Of a stretch of 64,000 nt of DNA, positions 3,012 to 51,194 are shown one piece after another. The translations under genes and the position numbers were made by a program. This DNA is from Lathyrus oleraceus (taxonomy: Eukaryota; Streptophyta; Magnoliopsida; Fabales; Fabaceae). Under the pieces are notes generated by a model. It was not told the origin of the DNA, did not search any database, and saw only the letters and a list, made by a program, of their open reading frames with translations. The stretch is from NCBI RefSeq assembly GCF_024323335.1, contig NC_066579.1:356888900-356952899 (forward strand). Reading direction: 5' to 3'. The first letter of the stretch is position 1. Each line of letters starts with the position of its first letter.

Positions 3012-3040
3012 AAAAGAGTTTTCGTCCTCGAAAACATACC

Positions 3041-7519: not shown

Positions 7520-7531
7520 GCTCTGATACCA
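7520..7531 (-). other. Tekay primer-binding site (tRNA-iMet type)
   Basis: On the minus strand TGGTATCAGAGC lies five bases downstream of the 5' LTR end. This is the standard plant retrotransposon site complementary to the 3' end of initiator methionine tRNA. Confidence 0.93.
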
Positions 7532-7536
7532 CTAAT

Positions 7537-12646: not shown

Positions 12647-12688
12647 TACGTTTTTTTTTTTTAATTTTTTTTTTTTTTTTTTACAGAA

Positions 12689-14112
12689 ATGGAAAATCTT
12701 CCCAAAATATGTGTAGATACTACTGATGCGTTTATGACGACGGAAAGATTTGGTACACGAGAAGAGGTTATCAGATGGATTAAAAAGGTTGGAATCGACA
12801 ATAAAGTAACTGTTATTATCAGTCGTTCAGATACTGAAACGGGGAAAAGAGGGAGAAGTAACAAAATAATATTTGGTTGTGATAAAGGTGGGAAGCACAA
12901 GATTAGTGATAGTGGTACCCAAAGTGCTTCCAAGAAATGTGGATGTCCATTTAAAATCAGGTCGACTCCGGCGAAAGATGGATCTGGTTGGAAGATTGAT
13001 GTAAAATATGGGTTACATAATCATGGTTTACCTGATAGATTAGAAGGTCATTCATTTATTGGTAGGTTGACCACAGATGAGAAGCAACATGTCGCTGATT
13101 TGGCAAAGAGACATGTAGCACCTAGAAACATTTTGCTTTCCTTGCAAGACAAGTTTCCTGAGAATGTCACTCGGATTACACAAGTATACAAGCATAAGAG
13201 TGTGATAGAAAAAGAGATAAGAGGTCCAAGGAGTGAGATACAACATTTGTTTAAGCTTATTGAGGATGCATGATATGTGTATTGGAGTATAAAACAGGAT
13301 GACTCGGAAGTGGTGAGAGAGATATTTTGGGCACATCTTGATTCAGTTAAGTTGTTGAATATATTTCCGATTGTGTTAGTTATGGATAGCACCTACAAGA
13401 CAAACAAATATAGACAACCTTTGTTTGAAATTGTTGGCATGACATCGACTGAGTTGACTTTTGCTGTTGGATTTGCGTATATGGAGTCTGAGCAAACAGA
13501 GAATTTTTGCTGGGTACTGGAGAAATTAAAAGAGTTGTTTGTGAAGAAAGACATGTGTCCACAAGTGATTTTGACAGATAGAGATCTTGCTTTGATGAAA
13601 GCAATTGAAGTTGTGTTTCCCAACTCGATTAATTTGCTATGTAGATTTCACATTAACAAAAACGTTGGTGCCAAATGCAAACAACATGTGGTGAATGACC
13701 TGCAGAAGACGATAGACACATTATGGATGGAAGTTGTCTGGGCTAGTGATGAGGTTGAGTATGGTCAGCGGTTGCATCAACTTGAGCAAGCATGTGTTGA
13801 TTATAGTGGATTTATTAATTATGTGAAAGACACATGGTTGACTCCACATAGGCATAGATTTGTTGGAGCATGGATTAATCGAGTCCTACATTTGGGTAAC
13901 ACAACGACTAATCGGTACGTCTTATAATTTTGTATGTGTTATTTTTATATCTGATATTATTTTTATGTTTTTTTATGTGTTATTTTGAATATCTGATATT
14001 TTTAATATTTGATATTTTCAATATCTAATGGTATTTTTTATATCTGATATTTTTAGGGTTGAATCTGCTCATTGGAAGTTAAAGCAGATGTTAGGAAACA
14101 TTATAGGTGAAA
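12689..14112 (+). pseudogene. MULE transposase (FAR1-related type), nonsense and 3' truncated
   Basis: Exon 1 starts at ATG 12689 just after a poly-T/ACAG stretch. Residues 60-112 hold a C64, C84-x-C86, H110-x-H112 pattern of the WRKY-GCM1/FAR1 DNA-binding zinc finger. At 13271-13273 an in-frame TGA (probably from CGA) interrupts the protein; the same frame continues at 13277 with the MULE catalytic domain, including MDSTYKTN and ILTDRDLALMKA around the first two acidic residues. A predicted intron runs 13915-14056 (CG|GTACGT ... TTTTTAG|GG) and keeps frame, giving VESAHWKLKQML downstream as in related MULEs. Sequence then breaks into the PMD gene near 14112, so the C-terminal part is lost. 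The family cuts and pastes DNA in the nucleus. This copy should be inactive. Confidence 0.88.
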
Positions 14113-26457: not shown

Positions 26458-29400
26458 TGTCGCATCACGCGAAAAACCGGCGGGAAAACAAGAACAACAG
26501 AGCCGCCACCGTGCGTTATTTATCCCAAAAGAGGGAAAGGAAACGCTCAGAGTAAACCTGGGAAAGGACATGGTCTCGCGACCAAAGAGAATGGGATCGG
26601 GAGTCGGTTATGCGAAGGGAAGGTATTAGCACCCCTACGCATCCGTCGTACTCGACGGGATCCACGCACAAAAGGAGGGAAAATGGTTGCTAAACACTGC
26701 TCAAACTCACACACACTGGCTGAAAGAGACACAAGAAAACAAGACTGAAACTGACTCGGCAGGATATCGCGCCCTGGGCCTACTTAGTCTATCAGGCATA
26801 GACATCAGAGTCGAAGTAGTTCGGACTGGGGAAACGACACATGCTCGCTAGGATGTCGCATCCTATGCATACGTATCTCCTTGGACGAAGGAGAATCAGA
26901 GCATTCGTAGCTCGGCTGACACGCACACAAACAAACACAGGCAAAGGCAAACATGGAGCCTGAATGCCAATCACTGGACTTACATCAGCATCCGAACCAA
27001 AACGCACTTAAGGAGGCAAACATGGAGCCTGAATGCCAATCACTGGACTTACATCAGCATCCGAACCTAAACACACGCACACTGGAACCTAACTGCCACT
27101 CGATGGACTTACATCAGCTTCCAAGCACACAACAAGACAAAACAAAAACACAGGCGCCCGGAGAGATCAGCTCATCTCCTGCCTACGTACCTCATCTGGT
27201 ATGAGGATCAGGGCGACGTAGTTCCCCTACAGAGGGATAAAGGACTAGCCTAACCAGATAACAGAGGGAGACACAACACTAGGGAGACTACGACTCGAGC
27301 CTAGATGTTGTCATGCAAAATCAACCCTAAGTTAAGGTTTCTAGCTAACTGGCACAGGGAGCCAGCCTATCCTAGTCCTGACTTGCACAGGAAGCAAGCC
27401 ACACACACACTTAACTTGCACAGGAAGCAAGCCAAGCAAAACCTAACTTGCACAGGAAGCAAGTCTAAACTAACCCTAACTTGCACAGGAAGCAAGTCAA
27501 ACAAACATACAAGCACAGGTAGCACACACTATATACAAACAAGGGCTCACACAAGGGTTAGGTTTTAGTCGAGGGGTCATATCAACCTCAACAAACAAAC
27601 CACTGGAACTGGGTAGTGTTAGCTCTTAACCTTGCCATTGAGGGGCTAAGGTGAAGCAGATGAAAGGTGAGTGAAGATAAGACTTCACAGCTCTTATCCC
27701 TGGCCTGGGAGAGCTTAAGACAAGAATGTGTGGGTTCAGAAAGTGGGAACCCTTCTACACATTTGAAACTGACTCAACTGTACAATTGTACAAGATCTTG
27801 GGTTTGTATCTGCAATGCATCAACACAGTGGTGTGAGCAAAGCAGAAGACACACAGAATAGCAGGGGATAGATTGCATATCCCTTGGGTTCTGCCAATTG
27901 CCTCTTCACTTAGGAGGTCTTTGACTCTATGCAAGGACAAAAGTAAACAGTCACAAACATTGCCTCTTAAGGAGGACTTCAGACAGTTGCCTGGCCAAGT
28001 AACAGGCCAGGTCTTCCAGACTACATGAAGTAAAGGAATTATACCTCAAGCAAGTTGCTACTTAAAGCAAAGCAAAGCAAAAGTTCACAAGGAACTAAAA
28101 GCAACTAAAGTACCTGAAATCAGTCAAGCACAGTTAGTATACAAGTCAAAGTTAAATCAGAATGAAACAAAGGTTAACAGTCATCACAAGCAGATAGGTG
28201 TGCAATGCACAAGGTTCAAGGCATGTGAGCCAAGCAACCTACAAAACAAGCATGTTAGTCATGATAAACAAGCACACTCAATCAATTTGTATTGGTCTCA
28301 TTGAAGCATTTGTGGCTTAACCTGAAAACATGAGCTCAAAGGTGAGTAACAGGACCACTAGGACAAGCCTAGGGTCAAAAGAGAATGAGAAAGTCAAAAC
28401 AGCAAATGACAAGTGTCCAAAATCATGTTCAAACATTCAAGAAACAAAACCAATTGGGTTCACATTCATATCAATCATCATCATCATTTCATGAACAAAT
28501 TAGGTCAAGGTATAGCAAACAGAAGCTCATAGAAGTCAACAGCAAGACTTAACTCAAAAGCAATCTTAAACATTTCCAAAAATCACCAAATAAATCATGG
28601 TCAATCATAACCCACAGCATGGTAAGCATGTCAAATTTCATCTCATTTGGACAAGTGGAAGGCAGTCAATAAAAATCAGAAAGTCAAAGCCATTTTGAAC
28701 ATGCTCAAAGAAGTCAACCAAACATGCATCAACTTAGAAAAATCATAAATCAGAAATGGTGTATGATAAATGAATGGGACTAAAACCATGGCAAAGATGA
28801 GGATGTCTAGTTATCTCATGTAAAATTTCATGTCCATCTAATAAAGTATGAGAATTTCACAAATGAAATGGGAACAAGTGTCACATGAGGTCAACATTTG
28901 ACCAAGCAGGGGAGAAAATCTCAAACAATTAGGAAATGCCACAAATAATTCCAAGAAAATTCACATGTAAACTAGACATACAAGAGTAGGTTCATGCAAA
29001 AAATCAAACCAATTGGAGGTCAAGAAGCATGGTATCAAAAATCATCAAGTTGGACATCAATGGTGTGACACAAATTGTCACACCCTAATTCAAAAAATCA
29101 TAACTCACAAACCAGCAATGATAAATTCACAAACTCTACACCAAAATCACCATGAGTATGTCTAGTTTAAGCACAAAACATTTGGGAGCCATTGGATAAA
29201 GTATCATCATTTCACAAATGTTTTGGCAAAGTGTACAAAATATGAGCACATTCTACAAACCCTAATGCCATTTAAAAACCATCCATCAAAAAATTCCGGA
29301 AAAAATATGATTAAAAACTAGAGATTGTGATGAACATTCCACAAAAAACCCCGTGAAAATTGGATTTGAAATGAGTGAAATATGATTTTTCAAAGTTGAG

Positions 29401-31316
29401 TAACCAAAGTGAAATAAAATATGAAATTAAAATGAATTAATTGGATTTACTAATGAACCGGATGGCAATCTTGTAATTTTGGATTTCATTAATCAAAACG
29501 ACGCCGTTTAGGCGCGGCCAGGGAAATGTTCCTATTGGCTGGCATGGGGAACAGTAAGATGCACATGCGTGATACAGATTTTCTGGAAAAAATATTAGGG
29601 TTTGGCCATGTACAGTGAACACTCATCCCTTCCAATCAGCTCGAAAAAATTTTATGCCCAGAATTTGAAATCAAAAAGGGCATTCGAATCAACACTCCAT
29701 GCTCATCAATATTACAGCAACAAAAATCATAGAATCATGCTCACGAGAGAGATCAAAGCTCAAACACATTCATACATGACACTTTAAGGCAACATAACTT
29801 CCTTAATATGCGACCATTTTCGATGAGGCAAAGCTTAAAACAATCAGCATTGCAAGACCTTCATAATGCATAACATGGTTTTGGAAAATGAGAGATTCGA
29901 AAAACCATACCAGATTTGAAGAACAGAGTTGGGTTGTGGTCGTTTGGTTGCAAAGAGGCGAACCAGATCCCCCTTGTGGTCTGTATGTATGAATGGTCAA
30001 GTGTGGAGTGCTCATACGCCTTGCTTCTAGCTTCCAACAAGTTCTGCCATGGATGCTGCTTGAAAAAGACAGTCCATGAATCTTGATTACAGTTGGTTTA
30101 GGATGATGGAAATGTGCTCATAATGAAGAGAGATGGTGAAGCAAGTAAGGCAAGGCTTGGTCTCTTTGAGGATTTTGGCAGATTTTTGAAAATGCACAAA
30201 ATGAGGTTTGAGAGAATGAAATGAAATCTGAGTTGGTGTGGCTGCTACTAGGGTTTGTAATTGACAGAAAATGATCTTAAGATCTGCTGTTTGATGTTGC
30301 TTGTGGTACTGAATCAAAGGCCATGAAAATGTGGGATGGAGTAGTTGAAAGTTGTACTTTTGGCCAATTTTCAAGCAAGTAGGGAATGGCTACATGTACT
30401 GCACAAGAATGGGCTTCCAACAAGTTTTAATCAACATTTCAGAACATGTTTGAATGGTAGAAATGGTTGGGAATGATTATTTTGAAAAGTCAAAATTCAA
30501 CTCACTTGAAATTAATTAAGGCAAGTTCAAAAATGGCATTTTGATTGGTGAAGTTTTGGTACATGAAAATTACATTTTTGGAAAGAGGGGATCAAATGTG
30601 ACTTGTAGGAAAAAACCCCACCAAATTTGGCCAAATGGTTTGAGAGATATGGCCTTTTGAAGTTCAAGAATTTCTGAAAATGATTTGATCATATCTTGCC
30701 AACCATACATGGGAATTGAGTGTTCTTGGACTTTTTGGAAATGGGAGAACAAGATCTTCAACTTTGATGTTGGGCAAAAATTCATTTGAAGCTTGTATCA
30801 TGATGTAAGTTTGAGGATCAAGACTTTCCATTTTTGGTAAGTTTCAGTTACAGGTCCAGTTTCCATTTTTGGAAATTTCTGATCTGGCTTCAAATTCTTC
30901 CATGATGGTGTTTGACATGATATATGAGGCCTATTTGGACATGAATGAGACCTCTCAAACCAAGTCCAACCATCAAACCACTGATTAAATGGACAGTTGA
31001 CCAACAGTTGACTTTTAGGGTTTCTGACTGATTGTGCATTGACTGATGACTTCTGAACATCCAAACCTTGACCAAAACACTTCAAATGGATCTCCAAGTC
31101 ATGTGAACATGCTGGACCAACCCTAGGGCCTTGGCTCCTTGAGAAATGTGCTTGCTTGCTTGACTGACTGATCTCCTGACCAGTTTGACCTAATTTCTTG
31201 ATTGGCTTGCACTTGAGGCAACTGGGACAATGCAATGCTATGCAATGGACCATGATATGCTATGACCTAATATGAAAATGTATGTACAATGATGGGTGCA
31301 AATTTGAGGTGCTACA
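26458..31316 (-). repeat. Ogre LTR-a
   Basis: 4859 bp. Plus-strand edges are TGTCGCATCACG and AGGTGCTACA, so on its own strand it runs TGTAGCACC...TGCGACA. It holds a three-unit direct repeat (about 26953-27115, each unit ending in a GGACTTACATCAGC phrase) and the ACAGGAA hairpin array (27349-27497). No ORF with a domain is present. I find no clear TATA box on the minus strand. It abuts a polypurine tract on the right, so it acts as the 3' LTR of internal 1. Confidence 0.93.
27349..27497. repeat. LTR hairpin array with constant loop and changing arms
   Basis: Five hairpins of about 33-bp period start at 27349, 27382, 27415, 27446 and 27479. The first has arms CTGGC/GCCAG around ACAGGGA; the others CTTGC/GCAAG (two extend to ACTTGC/GCAAGT) around ACAGGAA. 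LTR-b has the same at about 44677-44826; LTR-c has a damaged version at about 61955-62105. Confidence 0.85.
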
Positions 31317-31328
31317 GCTGCCCCTATT
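31317..31328 (-). other. Ogre copy 1 polypurine tract
   Basis: On the minus strand AATAGGGGCAGC abuts TGTAGCACC, the start of LTR-a. It is short and interrupted by one T and two C, as reported for some Tat-lineage elements. Confidence 0.75.
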
Positions 31329-31449
31329 CAATCAGCTGGGAACCCGAATGGATGAGAGCAACGGCTGTCAGACTTTCAGGGTAAACAGGGATTGAATACC
31401 AAGAACCGTAGAAATTTGCACTCTGCCGGATATGATACAAGAAGAACCA

Positions 31450-32475
31450 CGTCATTTACTGATGACGCCTACAATTGACAACTTCAGAAGAGCGAAACCA
31501 TTTACCGATGGTTAGAAACTGGTAACTTGATATTTACCGATATCAACTTCAGCAAGACCATTTACCGATGACTGCTGGGAAACAACTTGATGTTAAAAGG
31601 AAGCAAAACCATTTACCGATGGTGGCTTCAAAGAAACTTGACATTTACCGATATCAACTTCAACTCGACCATTTACCGATGGCTACTGCAACTGGGGATT
31701 TGATATTTACCGATATCGAAGAAAACGGGGCCATTTACCGATGGCGTCTCCACTTGAGGAGGAACAAAATCTTTGTGGTGTAATCAAACAAGACGTTTAC
31801 CGACGTCTTCTGGGGATCTTGATTTTATCAACAAAGAAACAAAGCATGACCAGACATTTACCGGTGACTGGGATGAGACTCGATGTTTACCGACATCGAA
31901 AGATGATGTTTACCGACATCCAAAAACGACCAGACATTTACCAATGACCGGGGAACACTTCACTAAGGGAAAAAACAAATATTTGCAACTGGAAACCAGA
32001 TAGGACATTTACCGATGACTCTACTGGGGATCTCTAGCTGGGGATTATCAGACATTTACCGATGACTGCAGAAAAGACTCAATGTTTACCGACATCGAAA
32101 GATGATGTTTACCGACATCAAAAAATGACCAGACATTTACCGATGACTGGGGAGAAAACCTGATGTTTACAGACATCAAAACAATGATGACCAGACATTT
32201 ACCGATGACTGGAGAGAAAACCCGATGTTTACAGACACCGAAACAATGGTGTTTACCGACACCAAAAATGATGAACAGACATTTACTGATGACTGGCGAG
32301 AATACCCGATGTTTACAGACACCGAAACAATGGTGTTTACCGACACCAAAAATGATGACCAGACATTTACTGATGACTGGGGAGACTCCCGATGTTTACA
32401 GACACCGAAACAATGGTATTTACCGACACCAAACAAAGAAACACACGCGGGTGCTAGCATGACACTTACCGATAT
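31450..32475. repeat. TTTACCGA dyad array (about 30 units)
   Basis: About 30 cores of TTTACCGA (a few TTTACAGA, TTTACTGA or CTTACCGA), every 20-60 bp. Each is flanked by arms that are reverse complements, and the arms differ between units: CGTCA/TGACG (31450), AACCA/TGGTT (31496), TTGATA/TATCAA (31527), AAGACG/CGTCTT (31790), TCGATG/CATCGA (31880), TGGTG/CACCA (32247). Some later units with AGACA/TGACT or GATG/CACC arms have one mismatch. Copy 2 carries the same array at 48767-49792. Confidence 0.9.
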
Positions 32476-33670
32476 CACAAGAACGACTTCTTAGATATGT
32501 CAAGGCAAGGTTGACCACTTGCTGGGGGTCTCACTGGGGAGAAACAAACTTTCTGTCACCAACGGGTGAGGTAATAAACTTCTGTGGGGATATCAATCCT
32601 GAATGCTGTCAAGAGCAACTGTAGCAGACTTGCTGTGCTGATGTTGAATGAAATGATCCGCCTCTGCCGGGGATACGGTCTGGTGAGGTTAACACATGAA
32701 TGCATATGTTTGAATTTTTCTATGGCGTAATGCTCCATATTGAATGGGAATGCTACGCAGTTTTGAGGATGCAATGATCACTAAAGTGCAAGAATGCAAA
32801 AATGATGAAAAAAACTCCGGCTGGGGAGCCAAAACTGATCGGGTACTCCAACTCTGCGGGGAGACTCTGCAGGGAGAGCAACGACTTCTCACTCATGTTG
32901 GAGAATAGCACTGCTGCTGGGGAAAGGTAAACTCCGCTGGGGATATCCTTCAGTCCTCAGATAGGATAAATGCTGGAGATAAATTTCAATGAACCTGCCT
33001 CACTCGGGGAGGAAATCGGCAAATATAGGCCTGCTGGGAATAGGCAATCCTTAGATCTGTTGGGGAATAGAAGGCACTATCCACAGACGTCTCCGCAGGG
33101 GAACATAGCTCTGATAGCTTCCAAACTTGCTTGGGGAAAATATCTGCTGAGGAAACGTCCTCACAGATGCCAACCTGAAAAACAGCACAACAAAATGCCC
33201 CCAGGGGATACATGGACAAGATACGCTCAAGTGTCCTCAACATTCAAAAGGATTTTCAAATGTTTTATCTTTCTGCACGTTATTGTGTAGCCTTCATGTT
33301 CTTATATGCAATGCTTATCAAAAATTCGGACATTTTTGCAAACAAAACAGTAAAAATAAAAACCAAAGAGCTATTTATCTGAATAACGACTTTTATTGAT
33401 TGAAAATGCGCCTGAAGAGGCAAATACATTGGGAAGCAATTCCTAGAAAGAGGTAATTGCGCACAAAAGGAAAAATCTATCATAATGGCAATGTGAACAC
33501 GGCATCCACTATTTCCTAATTCTGTTATAACTCACAGATCATCAGTTTTCCTCCCAACTCCTTGCTTTCTGAGAAGAAATGACTGGACGGATCACATCTT
33601 TCGAGATGGCAGATGACAAAGCTTGATGAAGTACAGACAACTTAGACTGTAGTCTTCGCTTTAATCCCTC

Positions 33671-33880: not shown

Positions 33881-36800
33881 TTATGCGAAGTATTTTTTGA
33901 CTACATCTGAGTTAACAGGAGACGGAAAATCTTCACCATCCATAGTTGTAAGCATCAAGGCTCCACCGGAGAAGACCTTCTTCACAACATACGGACCTTC
34001 ATAATTAGGAGTCCACTTGCCCCTGTTATCTGTACCGGGAGGGAGGATCCTCTTCAAAACTAGATCACCGATCTGATAGCTTCGAGGACGCACCTTCTGA
34101 TCAAAGGCTCGCTTCATCCTTCTCTGATACAACTGTCCATGGCATACAGCTGCTAGCCGTCTCTCCTCGATAAGGCTCAACTCGTTAAACCTTGTTCGAA
34201 TCCACTCGGCTTCGTCCAGCTTGACATCCAATAAAACTCTCAGAGAAGGAATCTCCACTTCAACAGGTAGGACAGCTTCCATACCATACACAAGGGAGTA
34301 GGGGGTTGCCCCGGTCGACGTACGCACTGAGGTACGGTACCCATGCAAAGCGAAAGGCAGCATCTCATGCCAATCCTTGTACGTAACGACCATCTTCTGC
34401 ACAATCTTCTTGATATTCTTGTTCGCCGCTTCTACAGCACCATTCATCTTCGGTCTGTAAGGAGAAGAATTGTGATGTTCAATCTTGAAATCTTTACAAA
34501 GCTCTTTCATCATCTTGTTGTTGAGATTCGAACCATTGTCAGTGATGATTCTCTCAGGAACTCCATAACGACATATGATTTCTTTCTTGATGAACCGGGT
34601 AACCACTTGTTTGGTAACGTTAGCATAGGAAGCTGCTTCCACCCATTTGGTGAAATAGTCAATCGCAACCAAGATGAAGCGATGTCCATTCGAAGCAGTA
34701 GGCTCAATCTTCCCAATCATATCAATGCCCCACATGGCAAACGGCCAAGGCGAATTCATGACATTCAGAGGGCTTGGTGGTACATGCACCTTATCAGCAT
34801 AAATTTGACACTTATGGCACTTCCGAGCATACTTGAAACAATCGGATTCCATAGTCATCCAGTAATAACCCGCTCTCAACAATTTCTTAGCCATTGCATG
34901 TCCGCCGGCATGAGTACCGAAGGAACCTTCATGAACTTCCTGCATTAACATGTCCGCCTCGGGTCTGTCCACGCATCTGAGCAAGACCATGTCAAAGTTT
35001 CTCTTATACAACACATCATCCTGATTCAAATAGAAGCTTCCAGCTAGCCTTCTCAGGGTTTTCTTGTCATTCTTCGACGCACCTTCAGGATACTCCTGAG
35101 TCTTGAGGAAGTTCTTGATGTCATAATACCACGGCTTCTCATCAATCACAACAGACTCGGCTGCAAACACATACGCAGGCCTCTCAAGTCGATTCACCGC
35201 AACATGTGGCACATGATTCCACCAATGAACTTTGATCATAGACGACAAAGTAGCCAAAGCATCAGCCATCTGATTCTCATCCCGGGGGACATGATACAAC
35301 TTCACCTTCTTGAAGAACGTCAGTATTCTTCTGGTGTAATCTCTATACGGAATCAAATGCGGCTGGTTCGTATTCCAATCTCCGTTGACTTGATTGACCA
35401 CTAGAGCTGAATCTCCATAAATGTCAAGAGTTTTGATCCTCAGATCAATGGCTTCTTCTATCCCCATGATACAAGCCTCATACTCAGCTTCGTTGTTGGT
35501 GACGTCAAACGTCAATCTGGCAGAAAAAGGTATATGAGCACCTTTAGGATTGATCAATACTGCCCCAACACCGTTACCGTTCATATTCACAGCCCCATCA
35601 AACATCAGTGTCCATTTGTCATCCGGATCCGGTCCTTCCTCGACAAGAGGCTCTTCGCAATCTTTCATCTTAAGATACATGATGTCTTCATCAGGGAATT
35701 CAAACATCATAGGCTGATAATCTTCAATCGGTTGCTCGGCGAGGTAGTCTGACAGAATACTACCTTTGATGGCCTTTTGTGACGTGTACTGAATATCATA
35801 TTCTGTTAGAATCATCTGCCAACGAGCAACGCGTCCGGTGAGAGCTGGTTTCTCAAAGATGTACTTCACTGGATCCATCTTAGAAATCAATAAGGTAGTA
35901 TGGTTCAACATATACTGCCTCAGTCGGCGAGCAGCCCAGGCCAAAGCACAGCAAGTTTTCTCGAGCAGTGAATATCTTGTTTCACAGTCGGTAAACTTTT
36001 TGCTAAGGTAGTATATGGCATGCTCTTTTCGACCAGACTCGTCATGCTGTCCCAATACACACCCCATCGAGTTCTCAGTCACTGACAGGTACATTATCAG
36101 AGGTCTCCCTGGAACTGGAGGTATAAGGATTGGAGGTTTCTGTAAATACTCTTTAATCTTGTCAAAAGCTTTCTGACAATCATCATTCCACTTGATCGCC
36201 TGATTCTTTCTGAGCAGTTTGAAAATTGGTTCGCACGTGGCTGTTAGATGAGATATGAACCTTGCAATGTAGTTCAACCTCCCTAAAAACCCACGGACTT
36301 GCTTCTCCGTTTTTGGTTCAGGCATCTCTTGAATAGCTTTGACTTTTGCTGGATCAACCTCAATCCCTTTCTCACTGACAATGAAGCCTAAAAGCTTCCC
36401 TGATCTCACCCCAAACGTACACTTGTTCGGATTCAACCTCAGCTTGAACTTTCTCAACCGGTCAAACAGCTTCTGCAAATTAACCAGGTGCTCCTCTTCT
36501 GTCTGCGACTTCGCAATCATATCATCTACGTACACTTCAATTTCTTTGTGCATCATGTCATGAAAGAGAGTCGTCATTGCCCTCTGATAGGTAGCACCAG
36601 CATTCTTTAGCCCAAATGGCATCACCTTATAGCAGAACGTGCCCCAAGGTGTAATGAATGTCGTCTTTTCCATGTCCTCTGGCGCCATCTTGATCTGATT
36701 ATATCCAGAGAAACCATCCATGAAAGAGAATACCGAGGATTGAGCCGTATTATCAACCAATACATCAATGTGAGGTAATGGGAAATCATCTTTCGGACTC

Positions 36801-37348
36801 GCTCTATTCAAATCCCGGTAATCGACACACATTCTGACTTTACCATCCTTCTTCGGCACAGGAACGATGTTGGCCACCCATGGGGGATAACTTGTAACAG
36901 CCAAAAAACCTGCATCCCACTGCTTCTGAACCTCTTCCTTGATCTTAGTTGCCATGTCAGGACTCGTTCTACGAAGCTTCTGCTTGACCGAAGGACATCC
37001 TTCTCTAAGAGGTAATCGATGCACCACAATGTCTGTATCCAACCCAGGCATATCTTGATATGACCAGGCGAATATCTCCACATATTCTCTCAGCATCTCA
37101 ATCAGCCTCCTCTTGACAGAGTCCTCTAAAGCAGCCCCAATCTTGATTTCTCTTTTGGCGTCCTCAGTACCCAAATTAACAACCTCCAACTCCTCCTGAT
37201 GAGGTTGGATGACCCTTTCCTCCTGCTTCAGCAATCTGACCAATTCTGCAGGAAGTTCACAGTCTTCCTCACTCTCCTCTTCAGCTTGGTAGATGGGATT
37301 GTCGAAATCATACTGAGCCATAACAGAACTGTTCATAGTGAATGCCAT
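33881..37348 (-). CDS. Ogre copy 1 pol: RT - RNase H - archaeal-type RNase H - integrase
   Basis: 1155 residues from ATG 37348, uninterrupted. Reverse transcriptase about 160-330, with FMDG (D211) and YVDD at 273-276. The ordinary gypsy RNase H follows (about 415-540) but has YLSVTENSMG where the first catalytic aspartate should be, so it looks inactive. A second, archaeal/plant-type RNase H spans about 578-705 with D584, E620 or E622, D646 and D696; this dual arrangement marks the Tat lineage. Integrase has zinc residues H813, H817, C844 and C847 and catalytic D876, D937 and E973 (exactly 35 residues between the last two). There is no chromodomain. ATG 37348 is probably not the real start: an upstream splice acceptor in the same frame would fuse it to gag-pro. 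Converts Ogre RNA to DNA and inserts it. Confidence 0.95.
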   Translation of the reverse strand: MAFTMNSSVMAQYDFDNPIYQAEEESEEDCELPAELVRLLKQEERVIQPHQEELEVVNLGTEDAKREIKIGAALEDSVKRRLIEMLREYVEIFAWSYQDMPGLDTDIVVHRLPLREGCPSVKQKLRRTSPDMATKIKEEVQKQWDAGFLAVTSYPPWVANIVPVPKKDGKVRMCVDYRDLNRASPKDDFPLPHIDVLVDNTAQSSVFSFMDGFSGYNQIKMAPEDMEKTTFITPWGTFCYKVMPFGLKNAGATYQRAMTTLFHDMMHKEIEVYVDDMIAKSQTEEEHLVNLQKLFDRLRKFKLRLNPNKCTFGVRSGKLLGFIVSEKGIEVDPAKVKAIQEMPEPKTEKQVRGFLGRLNYIARFISHLTATCEPIFKLLRKNQAIKWNDDCQKAFDKIKEYLQKPPILIPPVPGRPLIMYLSVTENSMGCVLGQHDESGRKEHAIYYLSKKFTDCETRYSLLEKTCCALAWAARRLRQYMLNHTTLLISKMDPVKYIFEKPALTGRVARWQMILTEYDIQYTSQKAIKGSILSDYLAEQPIEDYQPMMFEFPDEDIMYLKMKDCEEPLVEEGPDPDDKWTLMFDGAVNMNGNGVGAVLINPKGAHIPFSARLTFDVTNNEAEYEACIMGIEEAIDLRIKTLDIYGDSALVVNQVNGDWNTNQPHLIPYRDYTRRILTFFKKVKLYHVPRDENQMADALATLSSMIKVHWWNHVPHVAVNRLERPAYVFAAESVVIDEKPWYYDIKNFLKTQEYPEGASKNDKKTLRRLAGSFYLNQDDVLYKRNFDMVLLRCVDRPEADMLMQEVHEGSFGTHAGGHAMAKKLLRAGYYWMTMESDCFKYARKCHKCQIYADKVHVPPSPLNVMNSPWPFAMWGIDMIGKIEPTASNGHRFILVAIDYFTKWVEAASYANVTKQVVTRFIKKEIICRYGVPERIITDNGSNLNNKMMKELCKDFKIEHHNSSPYRPKMNGAVEAANKNIKKIVQKMVVTYKDWHEMLPFALHGYRTSVRTSTGATPYSLVYGMEAVLPVEVEIPSLRVLLDVKLDEAEWIRTRFNELSLIEERRLAAVCHGQLYQRRMKRAFDQKVRPRSYQIGDLVLKRILPPGTDNRGKWTPNYEGPYVVKKVFSGGALMLTTMDGEDFPSPVNSDVVKKYFA

Positions 37349-37358
37349 AAGATCGCTT

Positions 37359-37611
37359 CTGCATGTTTAATGCTTTGTTTTAGAAAAAGAGTTCAATAAA
37401 GTCACAAAAAACAAAAACATTGCCATTTTTATTGTTTTTTGAAAAAGGATGAAAACAAAAAATAGAAAGACAGGGATCACAAAGTTTGATTTCAAAAAAT
37501 GTCCTTCATTAATGATAATCATTAAAACATGATGAGGCCCTACAATGAATCACTACGCCTTGGGCAGATCGTAGGATTTTCATGCAAAATGACAAAACAA
37601 CAGAAAATTAC
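37359..37611 (-). other. Predicted Ogre intron between protease and RT (copy 1)
   Basis: On the minus strand a donor GA|GTAATTTT overlaps the protease stop codon and an acceptor CATGCAG|AAGCG lies 10 bases before the pol ATG; a T-rich tract lies between. Removing these 253 bp takes out the stop and joins the two frames in phase (a split GAA codon, then AGC GAT CTT ATG). An intron at this place, with partial splicing, is established for Ogre elements; the exact sites here are my prediction. Confidence 0.75.
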
Positions 37612-39338
37612 TCTGTCAGAAGAGTAACTTGAACCACTTCTTCAGCCGTCCAGTTGTTGATAGACCCCCCTGGTGCACACGGGCGAACCCAGTTGTCCAA
37701 ATCACAATCACTGTCACAGTCTTCACTACCGGTTGCAGAGACGTCGCCATGATTCATCAGCCCAGCGCTGGTAAAAGTACTCGGACCCGCTTGACCATTC
37801 TGCTCTGCTTGGAGAGGCTCATAACCAACGCCAAATTTGTCTTCTTTGACAGGCAAATCCACCATCTTGCCCCAGCCTTCAGCTTTGCCAGAATCAACAA
37901 CCTCCTTAGCCTGCTTGTAAGAAGTAATTGAAGCACCTGGCTTCCTCTGCTCAGCGTACGCCACTTTCTCAAGAGCCACAGTCTCAAACGCCTGACATAA
38001 GGTTTCGTGGATCTCGCCATCCACCTCAACATATTTGAACGAGGATAGATGACTCACCAGAATCTCTTCTTCACCGCACACAGTCACAATCTGACCGTTC
38101 CAGACATACTTGAGCTTTTGATGGAGAGTCGACGAGACTGCCCCTGCTGCATGAATCCATGGACGCCCCAATAAACAACTATAGGCGGGCTGGATGTCCA
38201 TAACATAGAAGATGATATCGAATACCTCAGGACCTATCTTCACAGGCAAGGTAACTTCCCCACACACAGAACGTTTGGATCCGTCGAAAGCACGAACGAT
38301 CAGGTCACTGGGAGTAAGCACAAACCCTTCCACATCAATCTTCTTCAGAATCTGCTTAGGCAACACATTCAGCGACGACCCGGTGTCTACCAATACGTGA
38401 GACAACACTGCCCCCTTGCACTCCATGGTGATGTGCAAGGCTTTGTTATGGTTTCGCCCTTCAGGCGGTAAGTCCAGGTTGGTGAATCCTACACCATGCC
38501 TGGTGCTCACATTGGCCATCACACCCTCCAGTTGATTGACAGAAATCTCCTGAGGCACGTAAGCCAGATTCAACATCTTCAGCAAGGCATTACGGTGTGC
38601 CTCAGAGCACAACAACAGTGAAAGTATAGAAATCTTGGACGGAGTTTGATTCAACTGATCTACAATCTTGTAGTCACTCTTCTTGATTATTTTCATAAAC
38701 TCCTCCACGTCTTTCTCAAATGACCCCTCGGGCGCTTCCTTCTGGACAGGTTCTTCCTCAACCACAGCTTGCTTACCCTTTGCTTTGGCGAGAGCCTCAG
38801 CATTATTGTCCCTCAAAGGCTGCGGTGCGAACAGACGACCGCTTCTGGTAAAACCTCCTGGACCCCCTACATTATCCACAGCCGGACCAACAGTTGCAGG
38901 AACTCTATTCGGTAAACCAATTGTCACTGGAGCTTGATTCACTGGTCTCGTCTGACTTTCAGCCCTTCTGTTACTGCGGTGAGCATTATCATACTTCCAC
39001 GGCACGGCTCTACTATTCTCAACAGCCCTTCTTCCAGACGCGGCGATAGTAGTTGGAGCACTGATGGTTACAGGCACGGAAATGGTAACTGGGGTACCAT
39101 TTGTTGCAGGTGCACTAACGACCCTTTGTCCACGTCCTTCAGACGGTTTAAAGTAAATGGTGATAGTTGACACTGTCCCACGATCTTTTACAGCCCTACT
39201 GAATTGCAAACAACCCTCATCCATCATACCCTGGATACCGGCCCTTAACTGGTCGCAACCATTCTCAGATTCTGCACAGCCCAAACAATCCTCATCACAG
39301 CCCGAGTAGACACCCCCATTCAGCAGACGGCCCTTCAC
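37608..39338 (-). pseudogene. Ogre copy 1 protease region (C-terminal part of gag-pro)
   Basis: An open frame of 576 codons ending at TAA 37608. It contains an aspartic protease with DTGSS (D318) and a GRPWIH segment near 391-396, preceded by about 200 residues of low-complexity, Pro/Val/Thr-rich linker. The frame's first codon is not ATG: upstream it should continue from gag, but single-base losses near 39397 and 39479 (relative to copy 2) disconnect them. The enzyme processes the polyprotein. Its stop lies on the predicted intron's donor, so the unspliced RNA would give Gag-Pro and the spliced RNA Gag-Pro-Pol (inference). Confidence 0.85.
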
Positions 39339-39444
39339 AACTAGCAGAGAAGTCTGAACATCATCAACATTAACAACCAGATCTTCAGCTTCTTTCCCTC
39401 AATATTGTTCACTCTATGCCCACCATGCTGAGGCATAGGGTTGT

Positions 39445-40920
39445 TTACGACGTTAGGCACTGGAGCGAAGTTGATTGCTTGGCATCGATCAAATCTTGGA
39501 CCTTGTGCTGGAGAGCCCGACACTTCTCAGTATGATGCCCTGGTGCCCCAGAGTGAAAGTCACAACGGACGTTGGCGTCGTACCCAGGAGGCAATACTGT
39601 AGGCGGAGCCATTGTACGCAACTCAACCATCCCCAACCTGAGTAGTTCGGGCAGCAGTTCGGCGTACGACATGGGTAGCGAATCAAAACGTCGATCAGGC
39701 ATCCTTTGTCTGGGCTGATACGGACGTTGCTGTTGTTGTTGCGGTTGTTGAACTCTTTGTTGTTGTTGTTGACGAGGTTGAGGTGCCGGAATGGTTACTG
39801 CAGCAGCTTGACGGTATTCACTTCTGTTCTGATCTCTGCGGTGTTGAACAGCATTAGTTTCACCCTCTCTTCGACGAGGTGCCCCAGCAAACGGCTTCTT
39901 AGAAGAAGAGGAACCAGCATCTTGGATCTTCCCAGTTTTAATCAAGCTCTCAGTCCTCTCTCCACAAATGACAACATCAGAAAAACTACCGAATGGGCAG
40001 CTCCCCATCCGGTCCATAAACACACCCTGAAGAGTACCGATAAACATATCTGTCAACTCCCTCTCCAGCATAGGGGGTTGAACTCTAGCAGCCAGTTCAC
40101 GCCACCTCTGGGCGTACTCCTTGAAGCTTTCATTGGATTTCTGACATAGACTCTGCAGCTGAGTCCGGCTCGGTGCCATGTCCATGTTGTGTTTGTATTG
40201 CCTCAAAAAGGCCTCACCCAGATCCCTCCAACAGCGGATAGAATCTCTCTTCAATTCCATGTACCAGTCCAAAGAAGCCCCAGATAGACTATCTTGGAAA
40301 AAATACATCCACATCTTTTCATCATCGGTATACGCAGAGATTTTTCGATAATAAGCCTGCACATGGGTGCGAGGGCAAGAAGTACCGTTGTATTTATCGA
40401 AGGACGGTGCTTTGAACTTGTAAGGGATTCTCAAACCTTCCACCAACCCCATATTGGTAACATCAAAACCGAGAGAATTCTGACATTCCATAGCTCTAAT
40501 TTTCTCAGCAAGGGCATCAACTTTACGATCCCTCTCATCAACCCTTCCCAGAACGTCTTCGTCTTCACTGAGCAGAGTGAACATATCCTCTTGTCTGTCA
40601 ACAATCGGAGCAGGATTACGGGCCGGGGCACGGACTGCTCTGGCATTAGCGGCATCTGGAGCAATAGGTTGACCGTTGATTCGAATACCCCCCAACTCAT
40701 CACCTACAGCATAGTTGTTGATGGGTACAGCAGCAGCAACATTGTTATCATTGACCGGGCCTCCCTCTGGCGGAGCATGGTTGACCGGTGGAATTGCAGC
40801 CTCTTGTCTCTGAACCATGGCTCGAAGTTCTTCTTGACCTTGTGCAACCCCTTGCATCATATTCATAAACTGGGCCATGTTAGCCTTCATCTCAGCCAAC
40901 TCTGCTTGAACTTGATCCAT
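39445..40920 (-). pseudogene. Ogre copy 1 gag (frameshifted at its 3' end)
   Basis: 491 codons from ATG 40920. The N-terminus is helical and Met/Gln-rich (1-40), then a linker, then the retrotransposon gag domain at about 160-310 (SFDKYNGTSCPRTHV, SGASLDWY, FKEYAQRW). A Gln-rich stretch lies at 380-400. The nucleic-acid-binding motif is a non-standard knuckle C453-x2-H456-x5-H462-x4-C467 rather than CCHC. The last ten residues are out of frame: TTGCTTGG at about 39477 lacks one T present in copy 2, where the frame runs on into the protease. Forms the virus-like particle core in the cytoplasm. Confidence 0.9.
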
Positions 40921-41330
40921 ACCTCTCTGTTGATTCAGTCTTGTTGAGTAGCGGTGCGGACGTTGATCAGCTATCCTGCCTGAACAGGAACCAAGAGTGA
41001 GAAGTCACGACCAAGAACACCTGTTATGCAAAATGATATGAGTATGGTGCTAATGATGCGTATGATGCACATGATATGTTCATTCCTCAGGCATTCAAAG
41101 AGCCTGAGTCATCCTCAAAAGATGGCAACCTGCAGCAAGAACAACACAGAAGCACAGAAACAACATACACAAGAGTGATGAGTACAAGGTGAAACCAACA
41201 ACCCCATCTATATGAGTAACAGGATCATACAACAAAGTCGACAAAGAAAATCCAAACAATCGGAGTACAACAATGAATCCCATCCAACAAGCCTGGAGGT
41301 GATTCTCAACATACACATCAAAGATACAAG
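40921..41330 (-). other. Spacer between Ogre ORF1 and gag (copy 1)
   Basis: 410 bp with no ORF of note and no recognised motif except ATGATG-rich sequence near 41040-41080. The equivalent in copy 2 is 58228-58634. Confidence 0.6.
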
Positions 41331-42971
41331 CTAAGACAAACGGCCTCCCGGAATGAGAGTCTTCAAGTACTGACACTGGTCTATCAACAGGTCACATTCT
41401 GAACATTCTGGCAAAAGAGTGATCTTCTCCTTCAGTTGTCGTCTAAGCTCTACCACTTCTCCTCCAAGGTGGTTCTCTGATGCCTGTCTCAAGTCTACTT
41501 CCTTCTTCAACTGGATGTCTTTATCTCTGAGTTGCTTCTCCAAGTCTCTGATCTTCTTCTGATAGCTGGCCTCAACCCTCTGCAGCCTCAAGCACTCCCG
41601 GTGTTCTGCATCTAACATGCTCTCCACCTCCTCGTAGGATCTCTTCTTGCTTCTCAGTCTGCTAGCATCTTCTTCTCGCACTCCTCTGAGTTGATGAGCC
41701 AAGTTCAACCTATCAGCTTTGGCTTTGTACAGCTCCATCTGGGTATCTTGCTCCTTCTCTCTCAAACGGCGATTCTCCATCAAGGCTTGCTTGTAGTGCT
41801 CCGCAGGCACACTCTCAGCAAGGATCAAAGGTGGTTGCTCCTGCAACGGCTCCATCCTATCGTAGGGTAACAACAAAGTTTCTACTCTCTCCTTGACCCA
41901 ATCAGTGTAATCAGGCATAGCAACGGCAAACTTCTTCCCTAAGACAGATCCATCCTTCACACCAATAGACTTCCAAGCTCTCCCTATCTGCTCCAATCTA
42001 TCCGGGTCACTCTGCTTCTCAAAATACACACTTTCTGCTACCTCAGCCTCAAGTGGTCTTCCCTTCATCACAAACCCCAACTGGCGAAGAGAAAGAACCG
42101 GGTTGTAATTGATGCAACCCCTAGTCCCTATGAGTGGCACATTACGGAATCCTCCACAGCTCATAATGACGTTACGCACATCCATCCGGTAAGATTGCCA
42201 CCTGATATCATAGGAAGTAAGAGACATAACCCTCTGAGTCCACTTATGCGTGCTCTGAGCATCCACAAAAGGTCCACTGACTGGCAGGAGAGACAAGAAC
42301 CATCTGAGCAAAAGCGGGAGACAACACCTGATAGCCCCACCCTTACCATGCCTACTGTGAATAGCATAGTAAGTGTCAGCTAATAGAGTAGGAACTGGAT
42401 TTCCTCCAATGAAAATACTGACTGCAGCATAGTCAACAAAATTGGGCATACTCGGAAACAGGACGATCCCATAGATCATGACGGCCAACTGAGCATGAAA
42501 GGCTTCCCAACTTCCCTTCTCTGCTTCTTCTCTAGCTACCCTCAACAGAAACTTCAAAGGCAATCCTACAACATCCCCACTGGACTTCCAACTATCACTG
42601 ACTTCCTTGATACCCAAATGGAGAGCTCTGGCAACAACTCTGAAATCAACCTCCTTGGGCACATCCAAGAAAGGAACCTGATACCGGACCGGGACACTCA
42701 GCAGAATGGAGTACTCCTCAAGAGTAGGCGCCAACTGATAATCTTGAAAGGTGAAACAATGAAGCTCTGGGTCGTAGAACTGTAGAAGAGTCTGCAACGG
42801 CACCGGATCGACTACCATCTTCAACAGTGTCAGAATATCTCCATACTGGTCAACAAACCCCTTCTGGTTACCACTGGTCATAAGGTTGCTCAACTCAATC
42901 AGAGACGTCAAAGGTTCACGGTGAAAGCTGTAGGAACAAGTCTTCCGCTTCAACTCTGGGACTGTTGCCAT
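41331..42971 (-). CDS. Ogre ORF1 protein (PMD-like domain plus coiled coil), copy 1
   Basis: 546 residues from ATG 42971 (MATVPELK); the frame is open 141 bp further upstream, but that part is Lys-rich read-through of a poly-T tract and an unlikely coding start. This is the extra ORF that Ogre elements carry between primer site and gag; its role is unknown. Residues 71-95 (CFTFQDYQLAPTLEEYSILL) resemble the plant-mobile-domain core seen in the MULE gene at 14112-14830. Residues about 390-515 are heptad-rich, charged coiled coil, followed by a C-rich tail (CSECDLLIDQC). No catalytic motif, signal peptide or membrane segment is visible. The intact frame in copy 1 suggests recent selection or youth. 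Confidence 0.85.
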   Translation of the reverse strand: MATVPELKRKTCSYSFHREPLTSLIELSNLMTSGNQKGFVDQYGDILTLLKMVVDPVPLQTLLQFYDPELHCFTFQDYQLAPTLEEYSILLSVPVRYQVPFLDVPKEVDFRVVARALHLGIKEVSDSWKSSGDVVGLPLKFLLRVAREEAEKGSWEAFHAQLAVMIYGIVLFPSMPNFVDYAAVSIFIGGNPVPTLLADTYYAIHSRHGKGGAIRCCLPLLLRWFLSLLPVSGPFVDAQSTHKWTQRVMSLTSYDIRWQSYRMDVRNVIMSCGGFRNVPLIGTRGCINYNPVLSLRQLGFVMKGRPLEAEVAESVYFEKQSDPDRLEQIGRAWKSIGVKDGSVLGKKFAVAMPDYTDWVKERVETLLLPYDRMEPLQEQPPLILAESVPAEHYKQALMENRRLREKEQDTQMELYKAKADRLNLAHQLRGVREEDASRLRSKKRSYEEVESMLDAEHRECLRLQRVEASYQKKIRDLEKQLRDKDIQLKKEVDLRQASENHLGGEVVELRRQLKEKITLLPECSECDLLIDQCQYLKTLIPGGRLS

Positions 42972-43766
42972 CTCTATCAGTGAACAAGCTCTGGAATGTA
43001 CCTGAGAAATGATATGCATGCAGGGATTAGTTTTTTTTTTCTTTTCTTTTCCTTTTTTTTTGTATCTTTTTTTTATTGCGTTTTTTTTGAAAATAAACAT
43101 GCTATGATGCAAATGATGCAGACACGACTGGTTGGCTGTGTCTCTCAGAACACAGGATCAAAGCTTCGGCTTGAACTCGGAACCACAAATTCATCTGAAA
43201 CCCAAAGTCATCTGAGACCCCAAAATTCTGAACCAATAGTCACCAACAGGATCACAAGTCACCAACAAGTCACCAACAAGTCACCAACTGTACCTGTAAT
43301 AATGATCATTCCCTCCCCACTCACGGGTGTCATCTAGGCCAGGGTAAGGTCGAGAGAAACGCAGCATAAATAACCTTTCGCAGAACATCATCATATACAC
43401 ACCCGAAGTATGTAACGATAATGCCCCACCAGGGTCTGAACTGCTCGTGATATCAATGTTCCGCTAAGTGGCGCAATACCACCCGCTTCCCATGAATCAC
43501 TCTATTCCTAAGTATCCTAGATTTCACTCATGGCCTGGGTATTGGGCCTTTTACCTCATGTAACTCCCACCCCAACAGAGAGAAACAGACAACCAGCCAG
43601 GTGAACAGATGAATATGAATGCAAACATTAATGCAAACATAAATGCAAACAAATAAATAAATGAATGCAATAAAAACAGCAAACAGCAACCAAAACCCTA
43701 ACCTAGAGAGCGCTAGGAGAGACTCGCTTAGGGAAGATGGACCAGCACAGGTCAACTTCTCTATAG
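42972..43766 (-). other. Ogre copy 1 leader (primer site to ORF1)
   Basis: About 0.8 kb, non-coding. It contains a poly-T tract (about 43027-43090 on the plus strand), a small direct repeat of the phrase AAGTCACCAAC (three to four copies near 43240-43290) and ATGCAAACATAA-type repeats (about 43617-43670). Confidence 0.7.
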
Positions 43767-48633: not shown

Positions 48634-51194
48634 GCTGCCCCTATTCAATCAGCTGGGAACCCGAATGGATGAGAGCAACGGCTGTCAGACTTTCAGGGTA
48701 AACAGGGATTGAATACCAAGAACCGTAGAAATTTGCACTCTGCCGGATATGATACAAGAAGAACCACGTCATTTACTGATGACGCCTACAATTGACAACT
48801 TCAGAAGAGCGAAACCATTTACCGATGGTTAGAAACTGGTAACTTGATATTTACCGATATCAACTTCAGCAAGACCATTTACCGATGACTGCTGGGAAAC
48901 AACTTGATGTTAAAAGGAAGCAAAACCATTTACCGATGGTGGCTTCAAAGAAACTTGACATTTACCGATATCAACTTCAACTCGACCATTTACCGATGGC
49001 TACTGCAACTGGGGATTTGATATTTACCGATATCGAAGAAAACGGGGCCATTTACCGATGGCGTCTCCACTTGAGGAGGAACAAAATCTTTGTGGTGTAA
49101 TCAAACAAGACGTTTACCGACGTCTTCTGGGGATCTTGATTTTATCAACAAAGAAACAAAGCATGACCAGACATTTACCGGTGACTGGGATGAGACTCGA
49201 TGTTTACCGACATCGAAAGATGATGTTTACCGACATCCAAAAACGACCAGACATTTACCGATGACCGGGGAACACTTCACTAAGGGAAAAAACAAATATT
49301 TGCAACTGGAAACCAGATAGGACATTTACCGATGACTCTACTGGGGATCTCTAGCTGGGGATTATCAGACATTTACCGATGACTGCAGAAAAGACTCAAT
49401 GTTTACCGACATCGAAAGATGATGTTTACCGACATCAAAAAATGACCAGACATTTACCGATGACTGGGGAGAAAACCTGATGTTTACAGACATCAAAACA
49501 ATGATGACCAGACATTTACCGATGACTGGAGAGAAAACCCGATGTTTACAGACACCGAAACAATGGTGTTTACCGACACCAAAAATGATGAACAGACATT
49601 TACTGATGACTGGCGAGAATACCCGATGTTTACAGACACCGAAACAATGGTGTTTACCGACACCAAAAATGATGACCAGACATTTACTGATGACTGGGGA
49701 GACTCCCGATGTTTACAGACACCGAAACAATGGTATTTACCGACACCAAACAAAGAAACACACGCGGGTGCTAGCATGACACTTACCGGTATCACAAGAA
49801 CGACTTCTTAGATATGTCAAGGCAAGGTTGACCACTTGCTGGGGGTCTCACTGGGGAGAAACAAACTTTCTGTCACCAACGGGTGAGGTAATAAACTTCT
49901 GTGGGGATATCAATCCTGAATGCTGTCAAGAGCAACTGTAGCAGACTTGCTGTGCTGATGTTGAATGAAATGATCCGCCTCTGCCGGGGATACGGTCTGG
50001 TGAGGTTAACACATGAATGCATATGTTTGAATTTTTCTATGGCGTAATGCTCCATATTGAATGGGAATGCTACGCAGTTTGAGGATGCAATGATCACTAA
50101 AGTGCAAGAATGCAAAAATGATGAAAAAACTCCGGCTGGGGAGCCAAAACTGATCGGGTACTCCAACTCTACGGGGAGACTCTGCAGGGAGAGCAACGAC
50201 TTCTCACTCATGTTGGAGAATAGCACTGCTGCTGGGGAAAGGTAAACTCCGCTGGGGATATCCTTCAGTCCACAGATAGGATAAATGCTGGAGATAAATT
50301 TCAATGAACCTGCCTCACTCGGGGAGGAAATCGGCAAATACAGGCCTGCTGGGAATAGGCAATCCTTAGATCTGTTGGGGAATAGAAGGCACTATCCACA
50401 GACGTCTCCGCAGGGGAACATAGCTCTGATAGCTTCCAAACTTGCTTGGGGAAAATATCTGCTGAGGAAACGTCCTCACAGATGCCAACCTGAAAAACAG
50501 CACAACAAAATGCCCCCAGGGGATACATGGACAAGATACGCTCAAGTGTCCTCAACATTCAAAATGATTTTCAAATGTTTTATCTTTCTGCACGTTATTG
50601 TGTAGCCTTCATGTTCTTAGATGCAATGCTTATCAAAAATTCGGACATTTTTGCAAACAAAACAGTAAAAATAAAAACCAAAGAGCTATTTATCTGAATA
50701 ACGACTTTTATTGATTGAAAATGCGCCTGAAGAGGCAAATACATTGGGAAGCAATTCCTAGAAAGAGGTAATTGCGCACAAAAGGAAAAATCTATCCTAA
50801 TGGCAATGTGAACACGGCATCCACTATTTCCCAATTCTGTTATAACTCACAGATCATCAGTTTTCCTCCCAACTCCTTGCTTTCTGAGAAGAATGACTGG
50901 ACGGATCACATCTTTCGAGATGGCAGATGACAAAGCTTGATGAAGTACAGACAACTCAGACTGTAGTCTTCGCTTTAATCCCTCTTTTGGCTGGATCGCC
51001 CTTTCGGGTTTTCAATCCACCGGGATACCCATTTTTGCCTAAGCCGCCCTTGCGGGTTTTCGACTTACCGGGTGTACAAATTCTTTTCATTTTATCCCTA
51101 ATTTTTGCCCGAACCTTTTCTTTCTGTTTTTTGGTTCGTCGGGATGCCCTTTTTTTGCCTGGACTCTTTTAGTCTTTTTGTCCAGCGGGTCAAT
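48634..51194 (-). other. Ogre copy 2 polypurine tract and 3' UTR
   Basis: Parallel to 31317-33880. Polypurine tract at 48634-48645, TTTACCGA array at 48767-49792, hairpin block at about 50985-51194. One array unit reads TTTACCGA here where copy 1 has TTTACCAA (about 31937). Confidence 0.85.

Follow-up and report, generated by a model that had tools for sequence, protein, structure and literature searches.

A co-varying array of constant-loop RNA hairpins, very probably under selection, in the 3' untranslated region of pea Ogre retrotransposons

Here we analysed a window of 64,000 nucleotides from the genome of pea (Lathyrus oleraceus), in which copies of the retrotransposon Ogre carry arrays of short stem-loops on their sense strand. 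Comparison of the array units, within the window and elsewhere in the genome, shows that the hairpins exist, that their arms co-vary, that they pair by the rules of RNA on the sense strand and that, as judged from the changes carried by different copies, they are kept by selection in the copies that are transmitted. We consider the best explanation as a whole, with a probability of about 0.75, to be a selected array of RNA hairpins in the Ogre 3' untranslated region (UTR), between pol and the polypurine tract; the narrower claim, that RNA hairpins are under selection, appears very probable indeed.

Tandem repeats at this place in Ogre/Tat elements are already known, and their function at this position has been called unknown for Retand (PMC11963269) and for soybean Ogre (PMC3305785). 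The repeats described are hypervariable (Macas et al. 2009 via PMC7004042; soybean Gmr9/GmOgre, PMC3305785) and, like the array studied here, they lie 3' of pol and before the 3' long terminal repeat (LTR), vary in unit number and expand into satellites; unlike it, they have been described in print as minisatellite or tandem-repeat units. PMC7004042 contains none of the words hairpin, palindrom- or dyad, the sections of PMC3305785 available to us describe no hairpins, constant loop or paired arm changes, and constant-loop hairpins in Ogre 3' UTRs go unnamed in the titles and abstract openings listed by searches of the open literature, subscription papers lying outside that scope. Ogre has been estimated at 20-33% of the pea genome (PMC2206039). 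Selected RNA hairpins would give these repeats a testable role and name the loop, and would offer a reason why the arrays persist and go on to give rise to satellites.

Constant loop and co-varying arms

The window contains 45 copies of the motif TTTACCGA, where 1.05 would be expected and no more than 5 arose in any of 100 shuffles. Positions 31450-32475 hold 20 exact copies, the wider centre TTA[CT]NG in 29 units and one further unit with the centre TTACCA (31938-31943), where a second array, 17,317 bases downstream and with 2 differences in 1120 positions, has TTACCG. Since the terminal T and A of TTTACCGA make up the first stem pair, the constant loop is TTACCG on the forward strand and CGGUAA in sense RNA; a reading of this DNA from its letters alone (hereafter the sequence-only reading) had given UCGGUAAA as the transcript-strand loop, and it is on this strand that the RNA hairpin is supported, with the outermost bases of that loop being paired. 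The stems are contiguous Watson-Crick helices of up to 7 pairs and the loop-to-loop distance is 23-71 nucleotides. Arms of the window include ACCAT/ATGGT, GATAT/ATATC, GATGT/ACATC, GACGT/ACGTC, GGTGT/ACACC and GTCAT/ATGAC, so that all six arm pairs singled out in the sequence-only reading are present, GTCA/TGAC occurring just once and with the centre TTTACTGA; several units have an A.A mismatch (GACAT/ATGAC). That reading had also seen reverse-complementary arms in most units, which needs correction, the four inner pairs being all Watson-Crick in only 15 of the 29; they are intact in 22 of 29 if G.U pairs of the sense strand are allowed, and in 15 of 29 if those of the other strand are. No open reading frame (ORF) runs through the array on either strand, and coding constraint was rejected as a cause because every frame carries 8-21 stops.

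When the arms of the window array were shuffled 20,000 times, Watson-Crick pairing had a mean of 87.8 positions and a maximum of 109, and no shuffle reached the 126 observed among 145 (29 units by 5 pairs). Counting each of the 16 arm combinations once, 68 of 80 positions are paired (shuffled mean 47.1, maximum 62). The central claim of the sequence-only reading, some 30 dyads with a constant centre and co-varying arms, is thus borne out by 29 TTA[CT]NG units whose arms pair beyond all shuffles.

We extended the comparison to 74 other loci of the same genome, all from the first 35 Mb of one chromosome and picked by three hairpin patterns (GATGT/ACATC, 40 loci; GGTGT/ACACC, 14; the G.U form GATGT/ACACC, 20). 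These hold 1,131 TTACCG sites in arrays, with 1-41 exact copies of TTTACCGA per locus (median 13). Ahead of the array, on the forward strand, 57 of the 74 have a polypurine-like motif, which was not found in the exact form in the other 17; its distance from the first exact TTTACCGA has a median of 177 and a maximum of 1475 bases and is 139-144 in 25 of the 57. Taking one random unit from each locus (31 distinct), 87.6% of cells were paired, compared with 68.2% for shuffled and 21-48% for slid partners, and changes on both sides were seen at 6 of 6 pairs. A tree of 876 distinct 46-base units was then compared with a null in which columns evolve independently (40 simulations per pair). The Watson-Crick fraction exceeded all 40 simulations at pairs 1, 2, 3, 5 and 6, and the branches carried 13 compensatory double changes from Watson-Crick to Watson-Crick at pairs 1-5, where the null means sum to about 1 and partners slid by 1-3 yield 0-1.

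The founder of this pattern might be imagined as a few units multiplied by duplication, their pairing being unselected. Ten arm types indeed make up 927 of the 1131 units, compound units of 62-84 bp recur, and an expanded satellite of 62-bp monomers carries one type; yet the founders themselves differ by matched changes, and the fixed-tree simulations are exceeded at the five pairs listed above (not at 4, 7 and 8). We regard this explanation as very unlikely, and covariation by founder duplication only, the outcome by which the sequence-only reading said it could be overturned, did not hold when tested in this genome.

Throughout the genome (3.80 Gb) there are 22,466 copies of GATGT-TTACCG-ACATC and 14,438 of GGTGT-TTACCG-ACACC. 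The dyad GATGT-N6-ACATC has 35,198 sites, the same pattern read backwards 2,006, and TTACCG is the exact loop in 64% of these dyads; among the first 50 sites listed, counted by hand, the loops were TTACCG (32), TTACTG (7), TTACAG (3) and others (8). The variant TTATCG (sense CGAUAA), present in 127 of 1470 units at 46 loci, is possibly a second loop class. In a scan of IMG/VR, exact matches to ACCATTTACCGATGGT turned up once or twice per contig in 18 contigs.

Strand-specific wobble and transmitted changes

An A.C combination on the forward strand is a G.U pair in sense RNA, and G.T on the forward strand is A.C in sense RNA; both mispaired forms are one transition away from the same two Watson-Crick parents, and one stem background was tested per pair. 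Genome-wide counts, which do not depend on how the 74 loci were picked, gave for pair 4 a 73-fold excess of sense G.U (11,661 GATGT/ACACC against 160 GGTGT/ACATC), for pair 3 a 52-fold excess (4,139 GACGT/ACATC against 80 GATGT/ACGTC) and for pair 5 a 26-fold excess (10,380 ACCAT/ATGGC against 403 GCCAT/ATGGT). The 80 matches of the rare form GATGT/ACGTC are spread over seven large and two small contigs. Because a feature acting at the level of DNA has no cause for such strand asymmetry, the excess speaks for sense RNA, and an antisense transcript was rejected as carrier, the bias sitting on the other strand. The same skew is seen in the 655 units of the first 40 loci, for whose choice a Watson-Crick form alone was used, with 46 units of ACCAT/ATGGC and 43 of GATGT/ACACC, the commonest antisense-G.U form being GATGT/ATATC with 5. 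Two loci on other chromosomes (L103 and L104, 30 units) hold by hand count 6 sense-G.U and 3 antisense-G.U combinations at pairs 1-5, 2 of the 3 latter being the sites by which these loci were chosen.

Mutation bias was rejected as the source of the asymmetry, its size in the spacers being far smaller than 26- to 73-fold. On the forward strand, shared changes per 1000 opportunities in spacers were 15.5 for G>A and 14.0 for T>C against 10.2 for C>T and 12.7 for A>G; private changes were 13.6 and 9.8 against 16.8 and 11.4, respectively. Here private changes are those inferred at one locus and shared changes those at two or more loci, hence transmitted by replicating elements, a contrast that might be carried over to other retroelement families.

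Applied to Watson-Crick losses at pairs 1-5, this contrast gave 36 sense G.U, 32 antisense G.U and 36 mismatches among private changes and 23, 3 and 3 among shared ones (Fisher test, P = 0.0016 for the two kinds of G.U and P = 3e-5 for sense G.U against all else). With a threshold of three loci the shared changes were 17, 0 and 3, and in two halves of the loci shared sense and antisense G.U stood at 14 vs 4 and 14 vs 0. Sense G.U returned to Watson-Crick in 27 events, 11 of them shared, and antisense G.U in none (mean 0.3 over ten reconstructions).

The loop was examined in 1,470 units, allowing one loop mismatch and counting positions on the forward strand. Shared and private changes are about equally frequent in spacers (1332:1268, totals summed by hand), in contrast to 3:40 at loop positions 1, 2, 3 and 6 (1:18 at positions 1-3 alone); loop position 4 stands at 5:20, loop position 5 at 25:55 and stem positions 1-5 at 87:163, the private excess at loop positions 5 and 6 being partly CpG decay. 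The consensus of the sense loop is C-N-R-U-A-A, with the second base freest. Transmitted copies keep loop and pairing and private changes show no such preference, a pattern that very probably reflects selection on the hairpins. Off the element, the array has given rise to a satellite with monomers of 62 bp (L101, C1:247.42 Mb; G000:C1:247418000-247423999; 84 hairpin sites in 6 kb), in which antisense G.U stands at pair 5 in 16 of the 84 sites and sense G.U at pair 1 in 6, figures that come from one satellite. The monomers printed for this satellite carry a second hairpin with an altered loop.

Several results weigh against selection for sense-strand RNA hairpins. At pair 2 there is no preference for G.U (228 GATAT/ACATC against 511 GATGT/ATATC); both forms are near the presumed level of post-insertion decay, which suggests that strict pairing is required beside the loop. 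The stem GACAT/ATGAC, found in 174 of 1131 units and at 50 loci, has A.A (sense U.U) at pair 4 between intact flanking pairs, a constant internal mismatch that may itself be read. Predicted folding leaves the strand undecided, the mean z in the window array being -1.37 for sense and -1.67 for antisense (controls 0.24 to -0.49) and mean predicted pairing 0.57 and 0.61 (422 hairpins from 25 of the 74 loci). In the unit tree the Watson-Crick fraction is not above all simulations at pairs 4, 7 and 8 (for pair 4, 0.651 against a largest simulated value of 0.685), and double changes at pairs 3 and 5 stay within the simulated maximum. The cross-locus test gave 12 further pair types, not above shuffles (mean 13.6). 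As to the sample, the 20 loci picked by the G.U form GATGT/ACACC enrich it in G.U units, private changes include duplicates inside one locus, one antisense G.U return was counted in the locus half with 14 vs 4, and the unit tree is noisy, for which reason the analyses were repeated over 10 reconstructions, thresholds of 2, 3 and 5 loci, two locus halves and 30 resamplings. Finally, with TTTACCGA numbering from 1 to 41 per locus, no single hairpin looks essential.

Proposed function and alternative explanations

In the mechanism that we propose, each hairpin would present a C-N-R-U-A-A loop, in most cases CGGUAA, above a U-A closing pair and a short stem, whose letters would be free provided that RNA pairing holds, G.U being tolerated at pairs 3-5. 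The combination of constant loop and free stem points to a protein that would read the loop in the context of the helix, and the many repeats of varying number point to multivalent docking instead of one essential hairpin; that the array is such a docking site we consider probable. The most likely user would be the Gag of the element itself, with the array marking full-length Ogre RNA for particle assembly. As a packaging signal read specifically by Gag the array is a tentative proposal, one that we would sooner doubt than assert, and a pattern search found no CCHC zinc knuckle in the Ogre frames, which counts against Gag as the reader of the loop.

Known systems offer partial parallels. In RNA viruses assembly is promoted by multiple stem-loops with a common loop motif (PMC6281560), and MS2-type packaging signals resemble the array in being many, with a common loop motif and otherwise variable; several stem-loops with a common loop and variable stems are what we found. 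Unlike those signals, which are dispersed along the genomic RNA, the array, known here from sequence alone, is clustered in one untranslated region of an LTR retrotransposon, exact TTTACCG on the forward strand being confined to the two arrays (window 26001-62600; degenerate forms were not sought). Ty3 is likewise a Ty3/gypsy element in which both UTRs and POL are required for localisation and packaging, and no such hairpin array is described for it in the available part of that account (PMC11381356). Two types of tandem array from Ogre elements of Lathyrus sativus are often found in derivatives that lost pol (PMC7004042), as expected of a cis-acting mark. A search of Rfam with positions 31300-32650 gave no family above threshold (best match 13.8 bits against 50). 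The iron-responsive element, with its CAGUGN hexaloop, and the Smaug/Vts1 element, with its CNGG loop, are read by proteins at the loop and are like the array in their hexaloop or CNG-like loop and freely variable stem. Both were rejected: the array loop CNRUAA has A at position 5, where the iron-responsive element needs G, and U at position 4, where CNGG needs G.

The main rival is a host factor that would bind the hairpins and act on unspliced Ogre RNA through its nuclear export, its stability or the control of its splicing. It fits with the intron of pea and Medicago Ogre RNA being spliced in only part of the transcripts (PMC6317226), and we hold it to be somewhat unlikely, a little more so than packaging by Gag. 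In one form of this idea the loop would imitate a 5' splice site and so titrate U1, and in its favour the loop sequence GGUAA is complementary to the 5' end of U1. The changes agree with the mimic poorly: the C at -2 is conserved in transmitted copies (2 shared and 22 private changes, the private ones mostly CpG decay), -1 is the freest loop base (25 shared, 55 private) and G is replaced by A at +1 in the TTATCG units.

The sequence-only reading had left a choice among hairpin or cruciform, copying of one arm from the other and binding of a dimeric protein, of which the RNA hairpin on the transcript strand finds support and the others do not. Dyads acting as DNA, as cruciforms or as sites of a dimeric DNA-binding protein, would account for palindromes with a constant centre that vary in matched pairs, and pair 2 alone lacks the strand asymmetry. 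Palindromy is strand-symmetric, however, whereas A.C outnumbers G.T on the forward strand at pairs 4, 3 and 5 by the factors given above, and in a dimer site one would look for fixed half-sites around a variable centre, the reverse of the pattern found here; the idea is highly improbable. To the same degree improbable is functionless copying of one arm from the other by template switching or quasipalindrome correction, which would produce matched arm changes. It should remove G.U and A.C equally, yet thousands of sense G.U persist in three kinds, and it leaves unexplained both the protection of the loop (3 shared, 40 private changes) and the evenness of private losses among sense G.U, antisense G.U and mismatch. 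Least probable of all is dimerisation by loop-loop kissing, which would suit the usually dimeric RNA of retroelements and the palindromic hairpin proposed for Ty3 (PMC11381356), since CGGUAA and its variants have no self-complementary stretch of four, so that identical loops cannot kiss, and the complementary sequence, TTTACCG, is found on the sense strand at three isolated sites inside ORFs of the two Ogre copies.

Returning to selected RNA hairpins that dock a protein, we would extend this explanation to the hypervariable minisatellites of Ogre-type elements in general, as packaging or export signals made up of one loop repeated tens of times, with the derived satellites as their fossils, with chances that we put slightly short of even.

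The host element and its neighbourhood

By its anatomy the element bearing the array is an Ogre of the Ty3/gypsy group, Tat lineage (Table 1). On the reverse strand the ORFs follow in the order DUF7745 ORF1, gag, protease (a weak match) and a frame with reverse transcriptase (RT), RNase H, a second RNase H and integrase, and this order together with the placement of the LTR makes the reverse strand the sense strand of the element. The array lies 3' of pol on the same strand as the ORFs, and about 120 bases separate its end from the polypurine tract and 3' LTR. A second, aRH-type RNase H between RNase H and integrase marks the Ogre lineage (PMC6317226), and in the pol frame RT_RNaseH occupies residues 419-523, RVT_3 589-706 and the integrase domains 800-856 and 875-972. 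The extra ORF upstream of gag, which the figure legend for GmOgre places likewise (PMC3305785), is the DUF7745 frame. The very long LTR, with tandem repeats before it, accords with LTRs of up to about 5 kb in Ogre, which has two polyprotein ORFs split by a spliced-out region averaging 274 bp (PMC6317226); here gag has one ORF and protease another, and a gap of 241 bases separates 37366 from 37608. A primer binding site complementary to tRNA-Arg is a further trait of the Ogre lineage in general.

Table 1. Features of the first Ogre copy and of the stem-loop arrays (window positions; hairpins in forward-strand letters)
Feature	Position	Strand	Remark
Stem-loop array, about 30 units	31450..32478	-	sense strand; loop CGGUAA, variants CAGUAA/CUGUAA/UGGUAA
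Second array, next Ogre copy of the tandem	48767..49795	-	offset 17317
Hairpin ACCAT-TTACCG-ATGGT	31497..31512	-	
Hairpin GATAT-TTACCG-ATATC	31529..31544	-	
Hairpin GACGT-TTACCG-ACGTC	31792..31807	-	
Hairpin GATGT-TTACCG-ACATC	31882..31897	-	
Hairpin GATGT-TTACAG-ACACC	32224..32239	-	A.C on forward strand, G.U in sense RNA; loop variant CUGUAA
Hairpin GGTGT-TTACCG-ACACC	32248..32263	-	
3' LTR, about 4.86 kb	26458..31316	-	left end by self-alignment; right end TG/CA by eye
Polypurine tract adjoining 3' LTR	31317..31329	-	sense GAATAGGGGCAGC; assigned by eye
ORF: RT, RNase H, second RNase H (RVT_3), integrase	33881..37366	-	
ORF: aspartyl protease	37608..39398	-	weak match below curated cut-off
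ORF: Retrotrans_gag	39445..41004	-	
ORF1: DUF7745	41331..43157	-	upstream of gag

The Ogre copies form a head-to-tail chain in which LTRs are shared (window 26458-64000, L102), with a period of about 17.3 kb and 98.7% identity over 19 kb. The chain extends past the end of the window, where a third array has 97% identity, and the third LTR (61082-64000) is without about 1.9 kb matching 28380-30314 of the first. A second Ty3/gypsy element occupies 1110-9424, with LTR direct repeats at 1110-2998 and 7536-9424 that are 99.3% identical and a long gag-protease-RT frame with three CCHC knuckles. Two forward-strand ORFs at 12665-13927, with an AFT-type match and a MULE transposase domain, are probably a Mutator-like remnant.
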